DNA of 41,987 nt from Flavobacteriaceae bacterium (GTDB lineage: Bacteria > Bacteroidota > Bacteroidia > UKL13-3): the NCBI GenBank assembly GCA_025363675.1, contig JANYDJ010000278.1, forward strand, positions 1 to 41,987, in the 5' to 3' direction. The notes beneath the pieces were generated by a model, which saw only the letters and a program-made list of their open reading frames with translations, was not told where the DNA came from and made no database searches. Below are positions 12,761-32,877 of the stretch, piece by piece. Positions within the stretch are counted from its first letter, which is position 1, and each line of letters opens with the position of its first letter. The translations under genes and the position numbers were made by a program.

Positions 12761-12876
<116 letters not shown>

Positions 12877-12889
<13 letters not shown>

Positions 12890-12993: not shown

Positions 12994-13053
12994 AATCCCT
13001 CTCTCTCCGCCAAGCAATATATATCCTGCCCCATGGCAGGATTTTTTGTTTAT
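12994..13053 (+). repeat. tRNA-Ser 3' end direct repeat, copy 2 (tRNA fragment)
   Basis: This is a 57/60 match to 12830-12889, beginning AATCCCTCTCTCTCCGCCA and including a perfect CCTGCC ccat GGCAGG hairpin with T tract. No 5' tRNA half precedes it, so it is a tRNA tail fragment, as left at the far end of an element integrated in a tRNA gene, or by a local duplication. No integrase gene lies between the copies (104 bp). Confidence 0.88.
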
Positions 13054-13311: not shown

Positions 13312-13350
13312 AAAATGGACAAATATGCAATTTGATTGCGGATTTGTCCA
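13312..13350. repeat. 39-bp hairpin direct repeat, copy 1 (5' of ATPase gene)
   Basis: Identical to 14540-14578. Each copy is itself a palindrome: arm TGGACAAATATGCAAT, loop TTG, then ATTGCGGATTTGTCCA; 14 of 16 positions pair, with a 2-nt internal mismatch. It ends 22 bp before the ATPase ATG and may act as an operator or as the end of a cassette. Confidence 0.92.
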
Positions 13351-13372
13351 AAATTTGTTTTATATTTGTGGT

Positions 13373-14539
13373 ATGATACAACGTAATATTAGTATTAAAA
13401 TTAAGCAGTTAGCCACCAAATTTCCAGTAATTACAGTTACGGGGCCTAGGCAATCTGGCAAGAGTACTTTGGTGAAAAACATGTTTCCAAAGCTGCCCTA
13501 CGCTACACTAGAAGACCCTGACGTGCGTTTGCTTGCCACTTCAGATCCCAGAGGTTTTTTGAGCAATTACCCCAAAGGTGCCATATTAGATGAGGTGCAA
13601 CACGTACCTCAATTGTTTTCTTATATACAAGGAATTGTGGATGAAAAAAACAAAGCAGGCATGTTTGTATTGAGCGGTTCACAGAACTTTTTATTGATGG
13701 AAAAAGTTACGCAAAGCTTAGCAGGGCGTACTGCTATTTGCCAGTTGCTGCCGCTAAGTAAAAACGAAATGCAGAAAGCTAAAATACCTTGCAAGGATAT
13801 TAACCAACTTATATATACCGGTTTCTATCCCCGCATTTACGATAAGCATATCGATCCACAAGATTTTTATTCAAGTTATGTGCGAACTTATTTAGAAAGA
13901 GATGTGAGGCAAATAAAAAATATAACAGACCATAGTTTGTTTATGAAGTTTTTAAAAATGTGTGCAGCACGTGTAGGTAGTGTTTTGAATTTGCATAGCT
14001 TGGCCAATGATTGCGGCATCTCAGCCAATACGGCCAAAGCTTGGCTATCGGTTTTAGAAACAGGTTTTATTATACATTTGTTGCAGCCTTATCATAATAA
14101 TTTTAATAAACGCTTGATGAAAAGTCCGAAGATATATTTTTATGATACGGGCTTGGTTTGTTATCTATTGGGTTTGGATAAAGCCGAACAAGTAGCTACC
14201 CATTTTTTGCGTGGCGGCTTGTTTGAAAACCTAGTAATTTCAGATGCTTTGAAACATTATTATAATAAAGGAAAACAATCTCCATTATATTATTGGAAAG
14301 ATAAAACACATAAAGAAATAGATTTGATTATCGACAAAGGAAATAGAACAGCAATACCCATAGAAATTAAATCAGGCGAAACTAGAACGAGTGATTATTT
14401 TAGAAATTTTGAATATTGGAATAAGGTTTCCGATGTAAAAAAGCCTGTAAATACGGTGATATATTCGGGTTTGAAGAAAGTAGTTACAACAGCGGGGAAC
14501 TACGTTCCATTTGATAGTTATGAGTTTTTACTAAAATAA
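13373..14539 (+). CDS. AAA_14 / DUF4143 ATPase
   Basis: This 388-residue protein joins an N-terminal P-loop ATPase to a C-terminal DUF4143 domain. Walker A is GPRQSGKST (24-32) and Walker B is GAILDEVQ with Asp73-Glu74; a sensor-like LSGSQNFLL follows. The C-terminus has EIDLII then IEIKSG, the spacing of PD-(D/E)XK nuclease-like folds. Biological function of this widespread family is unsettled. I start at ATG 13373; an upstream ATG (13325) lies inside the flanking repeat. TATATTTG at 13361-13368 is a strong -7 element and would give an almost leaderless mRNA. The stop codon touches the second 39-bp repeat, so the gene is a self-contained repeat-bounded unit. Confidence 0.9.
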   Translation: MIQRNISIKIKQLATKFPVITVTGPRQSGKSTLVKNMFPKLPYATLEDPDVRLLATSDPRGFLSNYPKGAILDEVQHVPQLFSYIQGIVDEKNKAGMFVLSGSQNFLLMEKVTQSLAGRTAICQLLPLSKNEMQKAKIPCKDINQLIYTGFYPRIYDKHIDPQDFYSSYVRTYLERDVRQIKNITDHSLFMKFLKMCAARVGSVLNLHSLANDCGISANTAKAWLSVLETGFIIHLLQPYHNNFNKRLMKSPKIYFYDTGLVCYLLGLDKAEQVATHFLRGGLFENLVISDALKHYYNKGKQSPLYYWKDKTHKEIDLIIDKGNRTAIPIEIKSGETRTSDYFRNFEYWNKVSDVKKPVNTVIYSGLKKVVTTAGNYVPFDSYEFLLK

Positions 14540-14578
14540 AAAATGGACAAATATGCAATTTGATTGCGGATTTGTCCA
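14540..14578. repeat. 39-bp hairpin direct repeat, copy 2 (3' of ATPase gene)
   Basis: This copy is base-for-base identical to 13312-13350 and starts at the base after the ATPase stop codon. It would form a hairpin in the 3' end of the mRNA, just before a separate terminator. The unit from 13312 to 14578 is 1267 bp. Confidence 0.92.
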
Positions 14579-18620: not shown

Positions 18621-21600
18621 TTAGTGTGCTAAAACAATTTTCTCTTTCGAGATTATGTCTTTGCCACTCATTTCTATAATATATATTCCTGCGTTGTATG
18701 ACTCTAAGCTCATGTTTAATTGTTTTTCACCATTAAGGTTATGGGTCAAAATTAATTTACCACTTAGGTCGAATACGCGAATGGTATTATAGATATTTCC
18801 TTCGGGTAATTTGATGGTGATATTACCATTGGTAGGATTGGGGAATACTTCGGCCCTAGTATTGGTAGCACTTGCAATGCCATTGGGGATGGTGATATTA
18901 AGTACTGAAGTATCATAACACGAAGCTACTACTTTCACAAAACCATTTCCTACTTTGCTCCACTGAACCTGAATAGCATTACTGCCTTGGCCACTTATTA
19001 TATTACCGCCAGAAACTATCCAGTTATAAGTTACGCCAGAAACAAATGCAATAGAATAAGTCTCTACATTGGGAACATTTACAATTGAATTGCCAGTAAT
19101 AGTTCCCAAACTTTGTTTTGCATTTACTGTTACAGCGATAGCATTGCTTGTTGAGCTACATCCTGACGCATTGGTTACAGTTACTGTATACGAACCTGTA
19201 GTAGTTACTATAAGCATACTATCAATACCTCCAGCTACGTTAGTTCCATTACGCTTCCATTGATAGGTGTAACCAAAACCAGTGCCTGTGGTTAATATGG
19301 CATTGCCGCCCGTACAGAATGTAGTAGGACTGTTGGTACTTGCAATAGCAGTAGGTGTAGGATTAACAGTAATAGTTACGGTTGAAACCGAGGCACAACC
19401 TTTGTCTGATGTTAGGGTAAGAGATACATTATATACTCCCACAGTACCATAAGTTATTATATGGGTTGCAGCGGTATCTGTTACACCGTTGCCAAAATTC
19501 CACAAACGGGTATAAGTACCAGTTGATATTGAACTAGAGTCTTTGAAACTGAAACTATTTCCAGCCAAACATTGTGAGGTACTATTTACTTTAAGCATAG
19601 CATTTGGTGATGCAATAACTGAAATAGAAACAGTGGCACTGTCAGTACATCCTGAATTAGAAGTTAGCTTTAGAGAAACTATATAGTTACCTTCTTTTAA
19701 ATAGGTATGGCTTGGCATTGCAGCAGTGTCTGTATTGCCATCGCCAAAATTCCATGAGCGGCCATAGGAACCCGAAGCAATTGTTGATGAATCAGTAAAC
19801 ATAAAACTGTTTCCATTTAGGCAAGAGCTCTGCACTGCCATACTTCCAATTTTGGCTACAGGCTCTGGATTAACACTTACCTGTACTTTGGCGGTGTCCA
19901 TACATCCGGAGTCGGTGGTGGTTATAAGGGTTACATCATAAACGCCATCAGTTGAATAACTATGCGTACGCATCATAGCAGTATCTGTGCTGCCATCGCC
20001 AAAGTTCCACAAGCGGGTATAGCTACCCGATGCAAAAGTAGAAGAATCGGTAAACATAAAACTATTGCCATTAAAACAAGCCGAAGTATTGCTGGCCAAT
20101 AATGATAACGAAACAGAAGGATTCACCAAAATTGCCAACGAATTGGTATCAGTACAACCAAGGTCGCTGGTTAGAATTAAACTGGCGGTGTAATTACCCT
20201 TACTATTATATACATGGTTGGGGCTCGAAATAGTATCGGATGTGCCGTCTCCAAATTCCCAATAAACAGTATAAGAACCCGAAGAGATATTTGAGAAATC
20301 TAAGAATGAGAAATTGTTTCCAGAAAGGCATTGGCTCTCATCATTTACCCATGCAACAACTTTGGGCATAGGGCTTACAGAAATATCAATTGTACTGGTA
20401 TCAACACAACCCATATCGCTAGTAATAATTAAATTGGTAGTATATGAACCATCATTGTTATATTGATGCGAAGGGTTGCTAATAGTATCAGAGCCTCCAT
20501 CTCCAAAATCCCATAAAATAGAATAAGAACCTGCAGGGATACTAGAGAAATCGGCAAAAGAAAAATCATTCCCTTTAAAGCATAAGGTGTCATCGCTAAC
20601 CCATGATACGGCTTTAGGCATTGGATTAATGGTGATTGCCCATTTTGCAATACTCACACATCCCATATCGCTAGTAATAGTTAAGGTGCCATTATATACA
20701 CCATCCGATTTATAGCTATGCGATGGATTGGCCGAAGTATCTTTGGTTCCATCACCAAAATCCCATTCGCGTGTAAATGTTCCTGCATCAATGGTAGAGG
20801 AATCAATATAAGAAAAACTGTTTCCTTTTAAACATTGTGAAGTATTATTTATCCAGGCATTGGCTGTTGGGTCGGGGTTAACGCTAATTTTTATGGATGC
20901 TGTATCTACACAACCTGAATCGGTAGTTATAATAATGCTGGCATTATAGTCGCCGTAAGTAGCATAACTATAGGTTGGCATAGTAGTAGTATCTGTTGTG
21001 CCATCACCATAGTTCCACATGCGGGTATAGCTTCCCGTAGCAAGGGTAGATGAATCTGTAAATGTGAAGCTGTTGCCATTTAAACAAGAAGAAGTACTGC
21101 TAACTGAAAATGATGGCGATGCTGATGGATTTATATTTAAATCGAGCATGCTGGTATCGCTGCAACCCATATCACTTGTAATCATTAGACTGGCTGTATA
21201 CGTTCCTGTTGCTTGGTATGTGTGAGAAGGTGCGTTTGAAGTGTCAGTATTTCCATCTCCAAAATCCCATGAAGGTGTATAAGAACCCGAGGATATACTT
21301 GAGAAATCTAAGAAAGAGAAATTATTGTTATTGAAACACTGGCTTTCGTTATTTACCCAAGCTTGTGCTTTGGGCATTGGGTTTACTAACACATCCATAC
21401 TTGCAGTATCTATACATCCCATGTCGCTAGTTATTATAAGATAGGTATTATAGGTGCCGTCAGCATTGTATGCATGGGTAGGGCTGGCATTGGTATCTGC
21501 AAGGCCATCGCCAAATTCCCAATAAGTAGAATAAGAACCTGATGATATACTTGAAAAATCGGCAAATGCGAAGTCGTTATTTTTTAAACATTGTGTATCC

Positions 21601-22991
21601 AAGTTTACCCATGATACTGCAATAGGCATCGGGTTTACAGTAACATTCCACGATGAAGTGGTGGTACAACCTTTATTACTAGTAATAGTAAGTGTATTAT
21701 TATAGGTTCCATCTGCCGAATAGGTATGCATTGGATTTGCAGCGGTATCCGTATTGCCATCGCCAAAGTCCCATTCACGGGTGAAGGTTCCGGTTGTAAT
21801 GGTAGAAGAATCATTATATATAAAGTTATTTCCTTTTAAACATTGAGAGCTGTTGTTTACAAAAGCATTAATAACAGCAGAAGGGTTTACTGCTATTCCC
21901 ATCATAGCAGTATCCATACAGCCAGAGTCAGTGGTAACCATTAAGCTTACTGTATAATTGCCTGGGTTTGTATAACTGTGAACGATGCTTAATGCATTAC
22001 TGGTATTGGCATCTCCAAAATCCCATACCACGCTGTAGTTTCCTGACGATACGCTGGACGAATCTGTAAATGTGAAACTATTTCCCGTAAAACAATCCGA
22101 AGTTTTGTTAGCAGAAAAAGATACAGAAGCTGAAGGATTAACCATAACAGCAACATTGCTCGTATCCATGCAGCCCATATCACTAGTAAGTATCAAGCTT
22201 GCTGTGTAAGCACCATCGGAGCCATAGGTATGCGAAGGGTTTGCACTGGTATCAGTATCGCCATCGCCGAAATCCCACATGGTACTATAAGTACCTGACG
22301 ATATATTTGAAAAGTCTAAGAACGAAAAGCTATTATCTTTGAAACACTGGTGGTCATCGTTCACCCATCCCACGGCTACGGGCATTGGGTTAACAGTTAC
22401 ACTTATAATAGTAGTGTCTATACAACCCTTATCGCTGGTGGCAATCAAGCTCACATCATAAGTGCCGTCTGCAGCATAAGAATGTGAGGGATTAGAAATA
22501 GTGTCTGTGTTTCCATCTCCAAAATCCCATGTGGGTTTGTAAGATCCAGATGAAATGCTAGAAAAATCAATAAAAGAAAAGTTGTTGTTTTTGAAACACT
22601 GATTGTCATTTATTGCAAATGGATCTGCAATAGGCATAGGGTTTACGGTTACTTCTATAGCATTACTGGTATCGCCAATCGAACCATCATCAGCTACCCT
22701 GCGAAACCAAGTAGTAACAGTTAAAGCGGTAGTTTGGAAATCTTGCGAATTTGCCGATGCAATATCTGCAAACCCATCGGTATCCGATGACTGACTCCAT
22801 TGCCACTGATAGTTGTAGGTTCCTCCTCCTCCAGTGGGTACTGAGCCAGAGAACATAGCTGGTGTTGCCCCCTCGCAAATAACTTGCGGTGCGGAAACGG
22901 TGTTGTTTGTAATCTGGGCACTGGCAAATGTGGAAACCATGATACCCAAAAACAAACAGATAAGTTTAATTTTTGTAATTTTATTTTTCAT
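18621..22991 (-). CDS. Giant PKD-repeat adhesin with T9SS sorting domain
   Basis: This 1456-residue cell-surface protein has a signal peptide (about 1-25), an Ig-like first domain, 13 tandem PKD units of about 84 residues (roughly 115-1210) with the hallmark W-(D/E/N)-FGDG, an Ig-like pair, and a C-terminal type A sorting domain (FPNPTNGNITIKL onward, ending GIYIIEMSGKD). It should cross the outer membrane through the T9SS and be anchored or released at the surface. Each unit has two conserved Cys (QC-K/N and D-GC-DT). Successive linkers follow a fixed order, PMP-WVN, PMP-WVN, PSxS, then a Trp/REW-type unit, so the units form a four-domain super-repeat. Adhesion is a family inference. Confidence 0.93.
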   Translation of the reverse strand: MKNKITKIKLICLFLGIMVSTFASAQITNNTVSAPQVICEGATPAMFSGSVPTGGGGTYNYQWQWSQSSDTDGFADIASANSQDFQTTALTVTTWFRRVADDGSIGDTSNAIEVTVNPMPIADPFAINDNQCFKNNNFSFIDFSSISSGSYKPTWDFGDGNTDTISNPSHSYAADGTYDVSLIATSDKGCIDTTIISVTVNPMPVAVGWVNDDHQCFKDNSFSFLDFSNISSGTYSTMWDFGDGDTDTSANPSHTYGSDGAYTASLILTSDMGCMDTSNVAVMVNPSASVSFSANKTSDCFTGNSFTFTDSSSVSSGNYSVVWDFGDANTSNALSIVHSYTNPGNYTVSLMVTTDSGCMDTAMMGIAVNPSAVINAFVNNSSQCLKGNNFIYNDSSTITTGTFTREWDFGDGNTDTAANPMHTYSADGTYNNTLTITSNKGCTTTSSWNVTVNPMPIAVSWVNLDTQCLKNNDFAFADFSSISSGSYSTYWEFGDGLADTNASPTHAYNADGTYNTYLIITSDMGCIDTASMDVLVNPMPKAQAWVNNESQCFNNNNFSFLDFSSISSGSYTPSWDFGDGNTDTSNAPSHTYQATGTYTASLMITSDMGCSDTSMLDLNINPSASPSFSVSSTSSCLNGNSFTFTDSSTLATGSYTRMWNYGDGTTDTTTMPTYSYATYGDYNASIIITTDSGCVDTASIKISVNPDPTANAWINNTSQCLKGNSFSYIDSSTIDAGTFTREWDFGDGTKDTSANPSHSYKSDGVYNGTLTITSDMGCVSIAKWAITINPMPKAVSWVSDDTLCFKGNDFSFADFSSIPAGSYSILWDFGDGGSDTISNPSHQYNNDGSYTTNLIITSDMGCVDTSTIDISVSPMPKVVAWVNDESQCLSGNNFSFLDFSNISSGSYTVYWEFGDGTSDTISSPNHVYNSKGNYTASLILTSDLGCTDTNSLAILVNPSVSLSLLASNTSACFNGNSFMFTDSSTFASGSYTRLWNFGDGSTDTAMMRTHSYSTDGVYDVTLITTTDSGCMDTAKVQVSVNPEPVAKIGSMAVQSSCLNGNSFMFTDSSTIASGSYGRSWNFGDGNTDTAAMPSHTYLKEGNYIVSLKLTSNSGCTDSATVSISVIASPNAMLKVNSTSQCLAGNSFSFKDSSSISTGTYTRLWNFGNGVTDTAATHIITYGTVGVYNVSLTLTSDKGCASVSTVTITVNPTPTAIASTNSPTTFCTGGNAILTTGTGFGYTYQWKRNGTNVAGGIDSMLIVTTTGSYTVTVTNASGCSSTSNAIAVTVNAKQSLGTITGNSIVNVPNVETYSIAFVSGVTYNWIVSGGNIISGQGSNAIQVQWSKVGNGFVKVVASCYDTSVLNITIPNGIASATNTRAEVFPNPTNGNITIKLPEGNIYNTIRVFDLSGKLILTHNLNGEKQLNMSLESYNAGIYIIEMSGKDIISKEKIVLAH

Positions 22992-28813: not shown

Positions 28814-31810
28814 CGGGTTGGCTTATCTTTCATCTTTTGTCTATATACTTTTGTCTGCTCTTCGCAATATACGCAATACGTCAATCCCTTCATAGGCACA
28901 GGCGGACACGGACATACCTTCCCCGGAGCAGTACTTCCTTTTGGCATGGTAGCTTTAAGTCCCGATACAAGAATTGATGGAAGTTGGGATGGTTGCAGTG
29001 GTTATCATTATAGCGACAGTATTATATATGGTTTTTCGCACACACATTTGAGCGGCACAGGTTGCAGCGATTTGGGAGATATTATGTTGATGCCTACTTC
29101 GCAAACCACTACTGATAAAAATATATATTCATCCAAATTTTCTCATAAGTTCGAATCGGCTAAAGCAGGAAAGTATGATGTATATTTACAAGATGATAAA
29201 ATCAATGTAGCACTAACTGCAACAACCCGTTGCGGCTTCCACGAATACAAATGGAACGAAACTACTGAAAGAAAAATTGTATTAGATTTACGCCACCGCG
29301 ATGAATTGTTGGATGGAGAAATTGAAATTATATCACCCACAAAAATTGAAGGCTATAGAAGAAGCAAAGCTTGGGCAACAGATCAGTGGTGTTTTTATAG
29401 CATAGAGTTTTCCGAACCTTTCAAACTATTATATAATAGTAATGGTGAAGAAGTGAAAGCAGAAATAGGAACCAAACTAACCGGCAAAAATGTAGCTGCC
29501 TGTTTTATATTTTCAGCAGGAACCAATATCATGGTTAAGGTCGGCATCAGTGGAACCGATAGGGAAGGAGCCAGAAAAAATTTGCAAACCGAAATTCCCC
29601 ACTGGGATTTCCAAACAATATATACTCAAGCCGACAGCACCTGGAACAAAGAACTAAGCTGCATAGAAGTAGACAATATATCCAAAAAGAGCGAAGCCCC
29701 CCTCTCGCCCGTAGAGGTGCAGGGGGAGAGGTACACCATCTTCTACACCGCCCTCTACCACTGTTTCATCCACCCAAGTATATATAATGATGTGGACCAC
29801 CGCTACCGGGGCCGCGATGGCAAAATACATATAGCCGATAGTTTCGATTATTATACTGTTTTTTCTTTGTGGGATACATATAGAGCCTTGCATCCACTGT
29901 TCAATATCGTACAACGAAAACGAAATTTAGATTTCATCAAAACCTTCCTAGCCCACTACGACCAAGTAGGCCGACTCCCAATCTGGGAATTTTGGGGCAA
30001 CGAAACCGATTGTATGATAGGCTACCATGCAGTAAGTGTGATTACAGATGCATATATACATGGTATCCGAGATTTTGATGTAGAGAAAGCCTATAAAGCC
30101 ATGACTAGTATTGCCAATAGCAATTGGCGTGGATTGGATATATATAGAAAAAAAGGATATTTGGAAGTAGAGGATGAGAGTGAATCGGTGAGCAAGACTT
30201 TGGAATATAGTTATGATGATTGGTGTATTGCACAGATGGCTCAGGAATTAAATAAGACAAAGGATAGCGTCGAATTTTATAGAAGATCTAAAAGTTATAT
30301 TAATTTAGCTAAATCAAATTTTTTTCAACCGAGGCAAAATGGAGGTTGGTTGAAAAAATTTGACCCGTATGAAGTAAATAATAACTATACAGAAGCTAAT
30401 GCTTGGCAGTATATGTTTATTGTTGATAATGATAATTTTCGTCATAGTTATATAACTAGAAAATTAGATTCTATTTTTAATGCATCTACTTATACCAAAG
30501 GCAGAGTTCAAAGTGATATCACAGGAATGTTAGGGCAATACTCGCATGGAAATGAACCTAGTCATAATATTGCTTTTTTATATGGGTATACTGGTAAACC
30601 TTGGAAAACATCATACTACGTAAATAAAATTATGAATGTGTTTTATCAAAATTCACCTGATGGTTTAATTGGAAATGAAGATTGTGGGCAAATGAGTGCT
30701 TGGTATGTGTGGGCGGCAATTGGAGCTTATCCTATTAAGCCTGGAGGAAATTTCTATTCATGGTCAGGACCATTGTTTGAAAATATCACACTTAATAACT
30801 TTACTAAAATTATTTCACATAAGCAATCTGACAATTCAAAGTATATTACTTCGATGTCTAAATTCAGAAAAGGTAAAGAAAAACCGATGAAGGGATGGAA
30901 TTTGGAAATAACAAAACATGGAGGGTATTGGCCAGTTGCAGATTTAGGAATGTGGTATGACTCTGTAGTTGTAATCATGTCAGATACCACTTTAAACTCT
31001 CGCACTGCAGAATGTTTATGGTGTAGCGATGGGTCTGATTATAACCCATATGATTATTCAAAGTCTCCAGATATTTCATATGTTACTTTAAATGGTAAAG
31101 ATTATGTAATTATAAATTTCTTTAATAATATACTTGACAATTTATCGTATATAAACGTACAAAATCATTATATTATTAATGGAAAGGAATACATTACAAA
31201 AAAGGATTCTGTCTGTATTCTCCTTGCTTCAAATTCTGAAATCACTGCGTACTCGCATGTGAAAAGTATGGGTAAAGATAGTGTGATTTTTAAGAGCATA
31301 AAGCCATATAAAAGCTATTCAAATTATTATAAAAAACCAAACAATTGGAGCATTAATATTTCTTCCACCCCACACCCTCAATACACCGCCAATGGCTCAG
31401 AATCCCTGATAGACGGCCTCTACGGCAGCACCGATTGGCGTAAAGGCAGGTGGCAAGGCTATCAAGGTTCTGATTTGGAATTAGTTTTGGATTTGCAAAA
31501 AATACAAACTATCAATGAAGTAGGTGGAAACTTTTTGCAAGATGTGGGTCCTTGGATTATGATGCCGAAAGAAATGATTATATATACTTCAGAAGATTCT
31601 GTTAATTATACAGAACAAGGAAAAGTATTACAAACAGTTTCAGATACCAATATGAAAGTAGTGATACAAAATATGATATATAAATTTCCAAAACCTATAC
31701 AAACTCGTTACATAAAAATAAAAGCCACCAATTATGGCAAACTCCCCCAATGGCACATCAGCAAAGGAGAGCCAGCTTATATATTTGTGGATGAGGTTTG
31801 GATGAAATAA
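28808..31810 (+). CDS. GH92 family alpha-mannosidase with C-terminal discoidin-like domain
   Basis: About 1000 residues. A signal peptide (MTRVGLSFIFCLYTFVCSS) precedes YVNPFIGTGGHGHTFPGA, the classic GH92 opening. Further signatures are LWDTYRALHPLF, IWEFWGNETDCMIGYHAV, YSHGNEPSHNIAFLYGY and GLIGNEDCGQMSAWYVW. GH92 enzymes are calcium-dependent exo-alpha-mannosidases on N-glycans or yeast mannan. The C-terminus (SLIDGLYGSTDWRKGRWQGY onward) is an F5/8 type C-like sugar-binding domain. The frame stays open upstream to 28631, but those residues are translated repeat, so I start at 28808. A hairpin insert (29701-29731) adds residues near SEAPLSPVEVQGERY. Acts in the periplasm or at the surface. 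Confidence 0.92.
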   Translation: MTRVGLSFIFCLYTFVCSSQYTQYVNPFIGTGGHGHTFPGAVLPFGMVALSPDTRIDGSWDGCSGYHYSDSIIYGFSHTHLSGTGCSDLGDIMLMPTSQTTTDKNIYSSKFSHKFESAKAGKYDVYLQDDKINVALTATTRCGFHEYKWNETTERKIVLDLRHRDELLDGEIEIISPTKIEGYRRSKAWATDQWCFYSIEFSEPFKLLYNSNGEEVKAEIGTKLTGKNVAACFIFSAGTNIMVKVGISGTDREGARKNLQTEIPHWDFQTIYTQADSTWNKELSCIEVDNISKKSEAPLSPVEVQGERYTIFYTALYHCFIHPSIYNDVDHRYRGRDGKIHIADSFDYYTVFSLWDTYRALHPLFNIVQRKRNLDFIKTFLAHYDQVGRLPIWEFWGNETDCMIGYHAVSVITDAYIHGIRDFDVEKAYKAMTSIANSNWRGLDIYRKKGYLEVEDESESVSKTLEYSYDDWCIAQMAQELNKTKDSVEFYRRSKSYINLAKSNFFQPRQNGGWLKKFDPYEVNNNYTEANAWQYMFIVDNDNFRHSYITRKLDSIFNASTYTKGRVQSDITGMLGQYSHGNEPSHNIAFLYGYTGKPWKTSYYVNKIMNVFYQNSPDGLIGNEDCGQMSAWYVWAAIGAYPIKPGGNFYSWSGPLFENITLNNFTKIISHKQSDNSKYITSMSKFRKGKEKPMKGWNLEITKHGGYWPVADLGMWYDSVVVIMSDTTLNSRTAECLWCSDGSDYNPYDYSKSPDISYVTLNGKDYVIINFFNNILDNLSYINVQNHYIINGKEYITKKDSVCILLASNSEITAYSHVKSMGKDSVIFKSIKPYKSYSNYYKKPNNWSINISSTPHPQYTANGSESLIDGLYGSTDWRKGRWQGYQGSDLELVLDLQKIQTINEVGGNFLQDVGPWIMMPKEMIIYTSEDSVNYTEQGKVLQTVSDTNMKVVIQNMIYKFPKPIQTRYIKIKATNYGKLPQWHISKGEPAYIFVDEVWMK
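29701..29731. repeat. In-frame palindromic insert in the GH92 gene
   Basis: CCTCTCGCCC (29701-29710) and GGGGGAGAGG (29722-29731) pair at 9 of 10 positions. GC-rich and unlike the flanking codons, it is translated as part of SEAPLSPVEVQGERYT without breaking the frame. Confidence 0.7.
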
Positions 31811-32143: not shown

Positions 32144-32785
32144 ATGAAAAAAATAGGAATTTTAGGTTCGGGCGAAGTAGCCAAAGCATTGGGCAATGGA
32201 TTTTTAAAACATGGGTATGAAGTGATGATGGGCACAAGCAACCCAAGCAAATTGGATGAGTGGAAAGCGGCTGCATCAGGAAATGTTTCTGTTGGTTCAT
32301 TTGAGCAAGCTGCCGATTTTGGAGATATGATAGTATTGGCCGTAAAAGGTGAGGCAGCTATGGATGTATTGCAATCAGTAAAAAATATAAGTGGCAAAAC
32401 TATCATTGATACCACCAATCCTATCGATTCAACAAAGCCTCCGGTAAATGGCGTATTGTCATATTTTACTGATATCAACGAATCATTAATGGAACGTTTG
32501 CAAAAGAAATTTAGTGAAGCAAACTTTGTAAAGTGTTTCAATATTGTGAGCAGCAGTTTAATGGTAGAACCCAAACTGGAAGGCGGACAACCCACCATGT
32601 TTATTTGCGGAAACAGCACAGAAGCCAAAGCAGAAGTATTATATATATTAAATCAATTTGGTTGGGAAACAGATGATATGGGCCATGCCGAAGCTGCTAG
32701 AGCTATTGAGTCATTATGTATTCTGTGGTGCATTCCCGGGTTTATAAGAAACGATTGGAAGCATGCGTTTAAGATGGTGAGGTAG
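32144..32785 (+). CDS. NADPH-dependent F420 reductase-like oxidoreductase
   Basis: A 213-residue single-domain Rossmann protein. The dinucleotide loop is IGILGSGEVAKALGNGFLKHG, with MGTSNPSKLDEWKA after strand 2, a position that in relatives reads the NADP phosphate. DTTNPIDSTKPPVNGVLSYF and VKCFNIVSSSLMVEPKLEGG are typical of the F420H2:NADP oxidoreductase / YcaK-like group. True F420 use is improbable in this phylum, so the physiological partner is open. It is a single gene, with repeats on both sides and no operon partner. Confidence 0.85.
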   Translation: MKKIGILGSGEVAKALGNGFLKHGYEVMMGTSNPSKLDEWKAAASGNVSVGSFEQAADFGDMIVLAVKGEAAMDVLQSVKNISGKTIIDTTNPIDSTKPPVNGVLSYFTDINESLMERLQKKFSEANFVKCFNIVSSSLMVEPKLEGGQPTMFICGNSTEAKAEVLYILNQFGWETDDMGHAEAARAIESLCILWCIPGFIRNDWKHAFKMVR

Positions 32786-32877
32786 TTAATTGTTAATGAT
32801 AAATTGTTAATGGTTAATGATGAATGTGCTGTGGTGAGCGAAGTCGAACCAGGGCTGACGCCTGATTTTTCAACGCG

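Follow-up and report, generated by a model that had tools for sequence, protein, structure and literature searches.

The AAA_14-DUF4143 gene of the window (the whole stretch of 41,987 nucleotides analysed, from a Flavobacteriaceae bacterium) carries a palindrome at its promoter and a second copy past its stop codon. Judged from sequence comparison, this arrangement, a palindrome at the promoter that is sometimes repeated past the gene end, suggests that the protein reads the site and controls its own gene. The explanation that we favour, with moderate confidence, is that of an autoregulated single-gene ATPase-nuclease of the PDC-S01 family, whose product would read a private dyad site and repress itself, the second site perhaps serving for bridging or looping, or for anchoring. 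The sites, their privacy and constraint, their position at the promoter and the intact ATPase and nuclease residues were computed directly. Coordinates are given in Table 1.

Window comparison revealed that the two 39-bp direct repeats enclosing the gene are identical at 39 of 39 positions. Between the upstream copy and the ATG at 13373 lie 22 bp, and the downstream copy begins on the base right after the TAA (14537-14539), a layout that the first-pass annotation had described correctly. The ORF finder starts the frame within the repeat, at 13325; the start is placed at 13373 because homologs and a TAnnTTTG box 4 bp upstream support it. The 35-nt core of the repeat, TGGACAAATATGCAATTTGATTGCGGATTTGTCCA, is a near-palindrome that folds at -15.9 kcal/mol (z -4.55) into 15 pairs, one of them G.T, around a 3-nt loop and with a single mismatch. 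With the G.T pair set apart, this leaves the 14 Watson-Crick pairs over 16 positions that had been counted earlier in a 35-nt hairpin, so that claim is borne out by the fold. No GTT is present on either strand of the core, hence no GTTRRRY core, and an integron attC site was rejected. The locus contains no Rfam family.

In the 3.53-Mb genome the 39-bp repeat was found at two sites only, with 3 mismatches allowed, and the relaxed pattern GGACAAATN{4,24}ATTTGTCC matched the same two sites only. The repeat thus does not occur in this genome away from the ends of the gene, and the flanks of homologs do carry repeats, each lineage with its own sequence; on both points the association of repeat and gene drawn by the first-pass annotation stood.

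Table 1. Features of the DUF4143 locus, in window coordinates.
Feature	Position	Strand	Remarks
Upstream 39-bp repeat	13312..13350	.	Dyad-symmetric core 13316-13350; proposed operator; same sequence in sister species G002
TATATTTG, matches TAnnTTTG	13361..13368	+	4 bp 5' of ATG; same spacing in homologs
AAA_14-DUF4143 gene	13373..14539	+	388 aa; PADLOC family PDC-S01; dN/dS 0.064 vs G002
Walker A region GPRQSGKST, residues 24-32	13442..13468	+	G24, R26, G29, K30 invariant in 35 homologs
Walker B acidic pair D73-E74	13589..13594	+	Invariant in 35 homologs
Winged helix-turn-helix, ~residues 205-256; proposed palindrome reader	13985..14140	+	AlphaFold2 model; assignment is a reading of the model
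PD-(D/E)XK nuclease-like domain	14213..14377	+	E285, D317, E331, K333 invariant in 35 homologs
Downstream 39-bp repeat	14540..14578	.	Directly 3' of stop; 1 difference vs G002 copy; no terminator-like site

The window protein matches the Pfam families AAA_14 and DUF4143, in that order, far above cut-off, and the PADLOC PDC-S01 profile over residues 1-370 (E 8.9e-102), a full-length family match. Its catalytic-type residues are invariant in 35 homologs, both in the Walker motifs (K30, D73, E74) and in the C-terminal PD-(D/E)XK-like core (E285, D317, E331, K333), which had been proposed from the sequence motifs and is upheld here. The low dN/dS against the sister species G002 shows that purifying selection on the protein is strong. 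A search by sequence for solved relatives found none that were meaningful. An AlphaFold2 model built from 35 homologs was confident (mean pLDDT 92.4), and the closest solved fold was PABY2304, a Walker-type ATPase of Pyrococcus abyssi (PDB 2qen, E 3.6e-7), with a TM-score of ~0.5 and 15% identity. ORC/Cdc6, RuvB and other AAA+ proteins came next, and weaker matches included Can2/Card1-type PD-(D/E)XK nucleases. In the model, helices 207-214 and 218-230 are followed by strands 234-237 and 253-256, a segment that we read as a winged helix and that would provide the protein with an encoded DNA-binding domain.

Palindromes are a trait of the DUF4143 family. After dereplication at 70% identity, a strong palindrome was detected within 80 bp of the start in 28 of 41 DUF4143 genes; of 66 unrelated genes taken from these loci as controls, 2 had one (Fisher p 1.2e-13). 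The remaining 13 DUF4143 representatives had none by the same score. Most homologs, in relatives and in other classes, carry the upstream palindrome, and its sequence varies from lineage to lineage. At least four DUF4143 lineages also have a near-identical copy 3' of the stop, and the palindrome is a different one in each: the window lineage has its own 39-bp repeat, the f1 lineage TTTGACAAATACGGAATCNGATTCCGTATTTGTCAAA, L043/L045 CCGAAAATTGTCAGTT..AACTGACAATTTTCGG, and L073 TTTTATGTAATTTGGAAATTGAACTTCCAAATTGCATAAAA. Site similarity follows protein identity among gene pairs less than 70% identical (Mantel r 0.52, p 0.0002). DUF4143 paralogs seem to have a separate site each. A paralog in the genome of the window (L007, G000:C22) has three tandem copies of one palindrome 5' of its start, with the core GGTCAATTGACTGACTGAATTAA.

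The sites are private to their genes. A scan of 64 genomes from the window's family for the f1 palindrome gave 35 sites in 20 genomes, with no genome having more than two, and each of the 35 adjoins a DUF4143 gene. Fifteen genomes hold the full pair, with a spacing of ~1.23 to 1.33 kb. Of the five single sites, three are at genes that run off the contig, and two (G067 and G068) consist of the upstream copy only; 15 of the 17 f1 genes with both flanks visible have kept the downstream copy. G107 has 16 DUF4143 matches, and there one gene's palindrome was found solely at that gene's own two ends.

They are also constrained. Fourfold-degenerate codon sites differ at 51% between the genome of the window (G000) and that of G002, against 0 of 35 positions in the upstream core and 1 of 35 in the downstream core. 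At that rate, one change or fewer in 70 positions has a probability of ~1e-20. The two copies are identical in G000 and differ by one base in G002, and a third genome, G001, retains just the downstream copy and the final 62 codons of the gene. The downstream copy cannot be essential, since it is absent in L021 and G067 and was lost in G068, where ~100 bp including the palindrome are missing next to an intact gene that is 98% identical to that of G017.

Positions of the palindromes relative to the start codon place the upstream copy on the promoter. TAnnTTTG is the -7 promoter box of Bacteroidota. It lies within 30 bp after the upstream copy in 17 of 18 f1 cases, versus 1 of 15 for the downstream copy with both sides considered, and across homologs it usually ends 4 bp 5' of the ATG. 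From this spacing, transcription would begin at the ATG or close to it, the message being leaderless or nearly so, and the upstream palindrome would lie outside the gene's own RNA. The palindrome has its centre at ~-37 to -40 from the ATG, so that it covers the -33 region and overlaps the gene's own promoter; in other lineages the centre is near -20 and the palindrome abuts the ATG. Neither a promoter nor a terminator accompanies the downstream copy.

Inspection of 33 f1 palindromes indicated what kind of structure is preserved. Arms are perfect in 30 of them. At positions 3 and 31, 21 palindromes have A/T and 12 have T/A; all 33 are complementary there, with zero intermediates changed in one arm only. 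The bases immediately left and right of the central one complement each other in 29 of 33, and the two copies of one gene often differ in the centre. A hairpin with a 3-nt loop needs no innermost pair, so these data are better explained by a duplex dyad that has a single base at its centre, and extruded hairpins seem the less likely form of the sites. The missing 3/31 intermediates could result from palindrome-correcting mutation or from selection for pairing. Arm mismatches of the transition type were all G.T on the sense strand, in a test of RNA pairing against A.C with too few cases to decide.

The autoregulation that we propose would operate as follows. The winged helix would let the protein recognise its private dyad-symmetric site, with a symmetric dimer or a higher oligomer as the probable binding form. 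Bound to the upstream site, over the -33 region, it would block its own transcription, and a potentially harmful nuclease would be kept scarce. The downstream copy, which has no promoter or terminator, would most likely be a second binding site that either makes repression stronger, through a bridge or loop across the 1.2-kb gene, or anchors the protein. We infer that the protein binds the sites, that binding represses, and that both sites act together. Some observations speak against autoregulation: simple dimer binding does not require that one-arm intermediates at 3/31 be absent, 13 of 41 representatives are without a strong palindrome by the score used, and the downstream copy is dispensable in the cases given above. 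The first-pass annotation had suggested that the protein binds hairpins at both ends of its gene. Binding at both ends fits sites that are private, co-diverging and constrained and that overlap the promoter, but duplex dyads are likelier than hairpins as the form bound.

The closest parallels for such a circuit are the operons of toxin-antitoxin systems and the controller proteins of restriction-modification systems, in which a private perfect or near-perfect dyad over the promoter, a helix-turn-helix protein and a potentially harmful activity also come together. In contrast to these, regulator, ATPase and nuclease would here be one polypeptide, and a second site lies past the stop. PDC-S01 itself (AAA_14 + DUF4143, COG1373) has been described as a single gene with the ATPase fused to PD-(D/E)XK, which the window protein matches over its whole length (PMC12988326). 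It is reported to rank fourth in frequency among prokaryotic defence candidates, at 29,494 bacterial and 9,986 archaeal detections; it is a phage-defence candidate by embedding only, no mechanism is given, and most such candidates still await validation (PMC12988326). Palindromes at the gene ends go unmentioned in that paper, and none of the open-access papers searched described them. The promoter site, doubled across the gene in several lineages, offers a testable handle on the family, as it designates a likely ligand and a likely control circuit, and the many natural variants of site and protein can be used for testing recognition.

Alternatively, the palindromes might govern the activity of the enzyme and not its transcription: the ATPase-nuclease would be parked on the sites of its own gene, or recognise them as self, and would be released or activated on phage infection. 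Such a role would agree with the invariance of the nuclease and ATPase residues, with the family being a defence candidate, with a second copy that has no promoter nearby, and with arms that covary as perfect complements. We find it rather unlikely, as the widespread part of the arrangement is the promoter copy, which points to transcription. Two palindrome patterns were searched in viral contigs and neither was found, so a viral copy acting as trigger is unsupported.

It is also unlikely that only the upstream copy works, as an operator, the downstream copy being functionless and kept similar by duplication and gene conversion. The identical pair of G000, the single-base difference in G002 and the lack of the downstream copy in several relatives, among them G068, could be explained in this way. 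However, retention in 15 of 17 f1 genes and the existence of pairs in four lineages argue against it, and gene conversion is not what keeps copies identical, because the two copies of one gene often differ in the centre.

A bolder proposal, to which we give still less credit, is that PDC-S01 is a self-referencing ATPase-nuclease. A two-site bridged complex on its own palindromes would hold the nuclease inactive or mark the gene, and interference by a phage would trigger defence. If this were true, the gene's own flanks would be the antidote, a defence principle.

The first-pass annotation had raised the possibility of a mobile or repeat-dependent cassette. A palindrome-gene-palindrome unit that moves itself, with PD-(D/E)XK cutting and the AAA+ part picking targets, would loosely resemble TnsA/TnsC. 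The sequences at both ends of the unit are identical, BLAST homology between distant copies often stops at the palindromes, and the unit of G079 lies on the opposite side of a neighbouring segment as compared to G034. In genus g3 the gene is found at several loci, with proteins 88-98% identical, therefore transfer and relocation do occur. Nevertheless, self-movement is not supported, and we judge it very unlikely. There is never more than one pair per genome among the 64, nor are two copies of one lineage ever together. The window lineage has a constant locus in three species, beside the same M20 peptidase gene; g2, g5 and g11 share one locus; no transposase is present; and G068 lost its downstream copy while its gene stayed intact. 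A stop of homology at the palindromes is expected, because they may be the sole conserved intergenic sequence. Neither a precise empty site nor a target duplication was found in the flanks of four loci and in junction comparisons, the loci being rearranged hot spots. One copy per genome in the scanned lineages, partly shared loci and the lack of a clean empty site at the loci compared argue against the cassette, with a small probability left for movement by the palindromes.

Known mobile systems share some features with the locus. Like REP/RAYT and the ends of IS200/IS605, it has hairpin-capable repeats flanking a single gene, but no HUH/Y1 transposase and no scattered solo repeats, and in the lineages scanned each genome has a single copy of the gene. 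A REP/RAYT system was rejected, as many dispersed repeats are expected and 2 copies are present in 3.53 Mb. Tn7 TnsA and TnsC also provide PD-(D/E)XK nuclease and AAA+ ATPase functions, whereas here these reside in one polypeptide, with no TnsB-like transposase and no defined ends or target duplication.

Least probable of all, and in our estimate very unlikely, are transcription insulators or bidirectional terminators either side of a transferred gene, since the palindromes, although hairpin-capable and at both gene ends, have AT-rich stems, no U-tract and no place among terminator-like sites, the upstream copy covers the promoter, and insulators do not need a shared private sequence. As a pair of intrinsic terminators the repeats were rejected: a GC-rich stem followed by a T run was not found, and the repeat is not among the detected terminator-like sites.

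Several observations concern the loci in which DUF4143 genes reside. In the window, the last 19 bases of a tRNA-Ser(TGA) gene (12761-12848) and the 41 downstream of it are repeated 164 bp on with 95% identity (12830-12889 and 12994-13053). This resembles integration at a tRNA end, and the DUF4143 gene starts ~320 bp past the second copy. In G004 (L178, G004:C22:46900-53000), another DUF4143 gene, whose product shares 27% identity with the window protein, sits at the flank that leads to the f1 gene in G017. It carries tandem palindromes GGGGAAT..ATTCCCC, and the locus looks as if it were a hot spot for the family. On plasmid pEMTOL02 of Emticicia oligotrophica (L187), a DUF4143 gene in opposite orientation has the L-ribulose-5-phosphate 4-epimerase gene on one side and the L-arabinose isomerase gene on the other, apparently inserted into an arabinose operon.

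Other repeats were noticed in the window. A 1456-residue protein (18621-22991) contains 252-bp (84-residue) PKD repeats and has a secretion sorting tail, and the 7-bp unit GTTAATG forms runs at two distant places (1350-1447 and 32785-32840).
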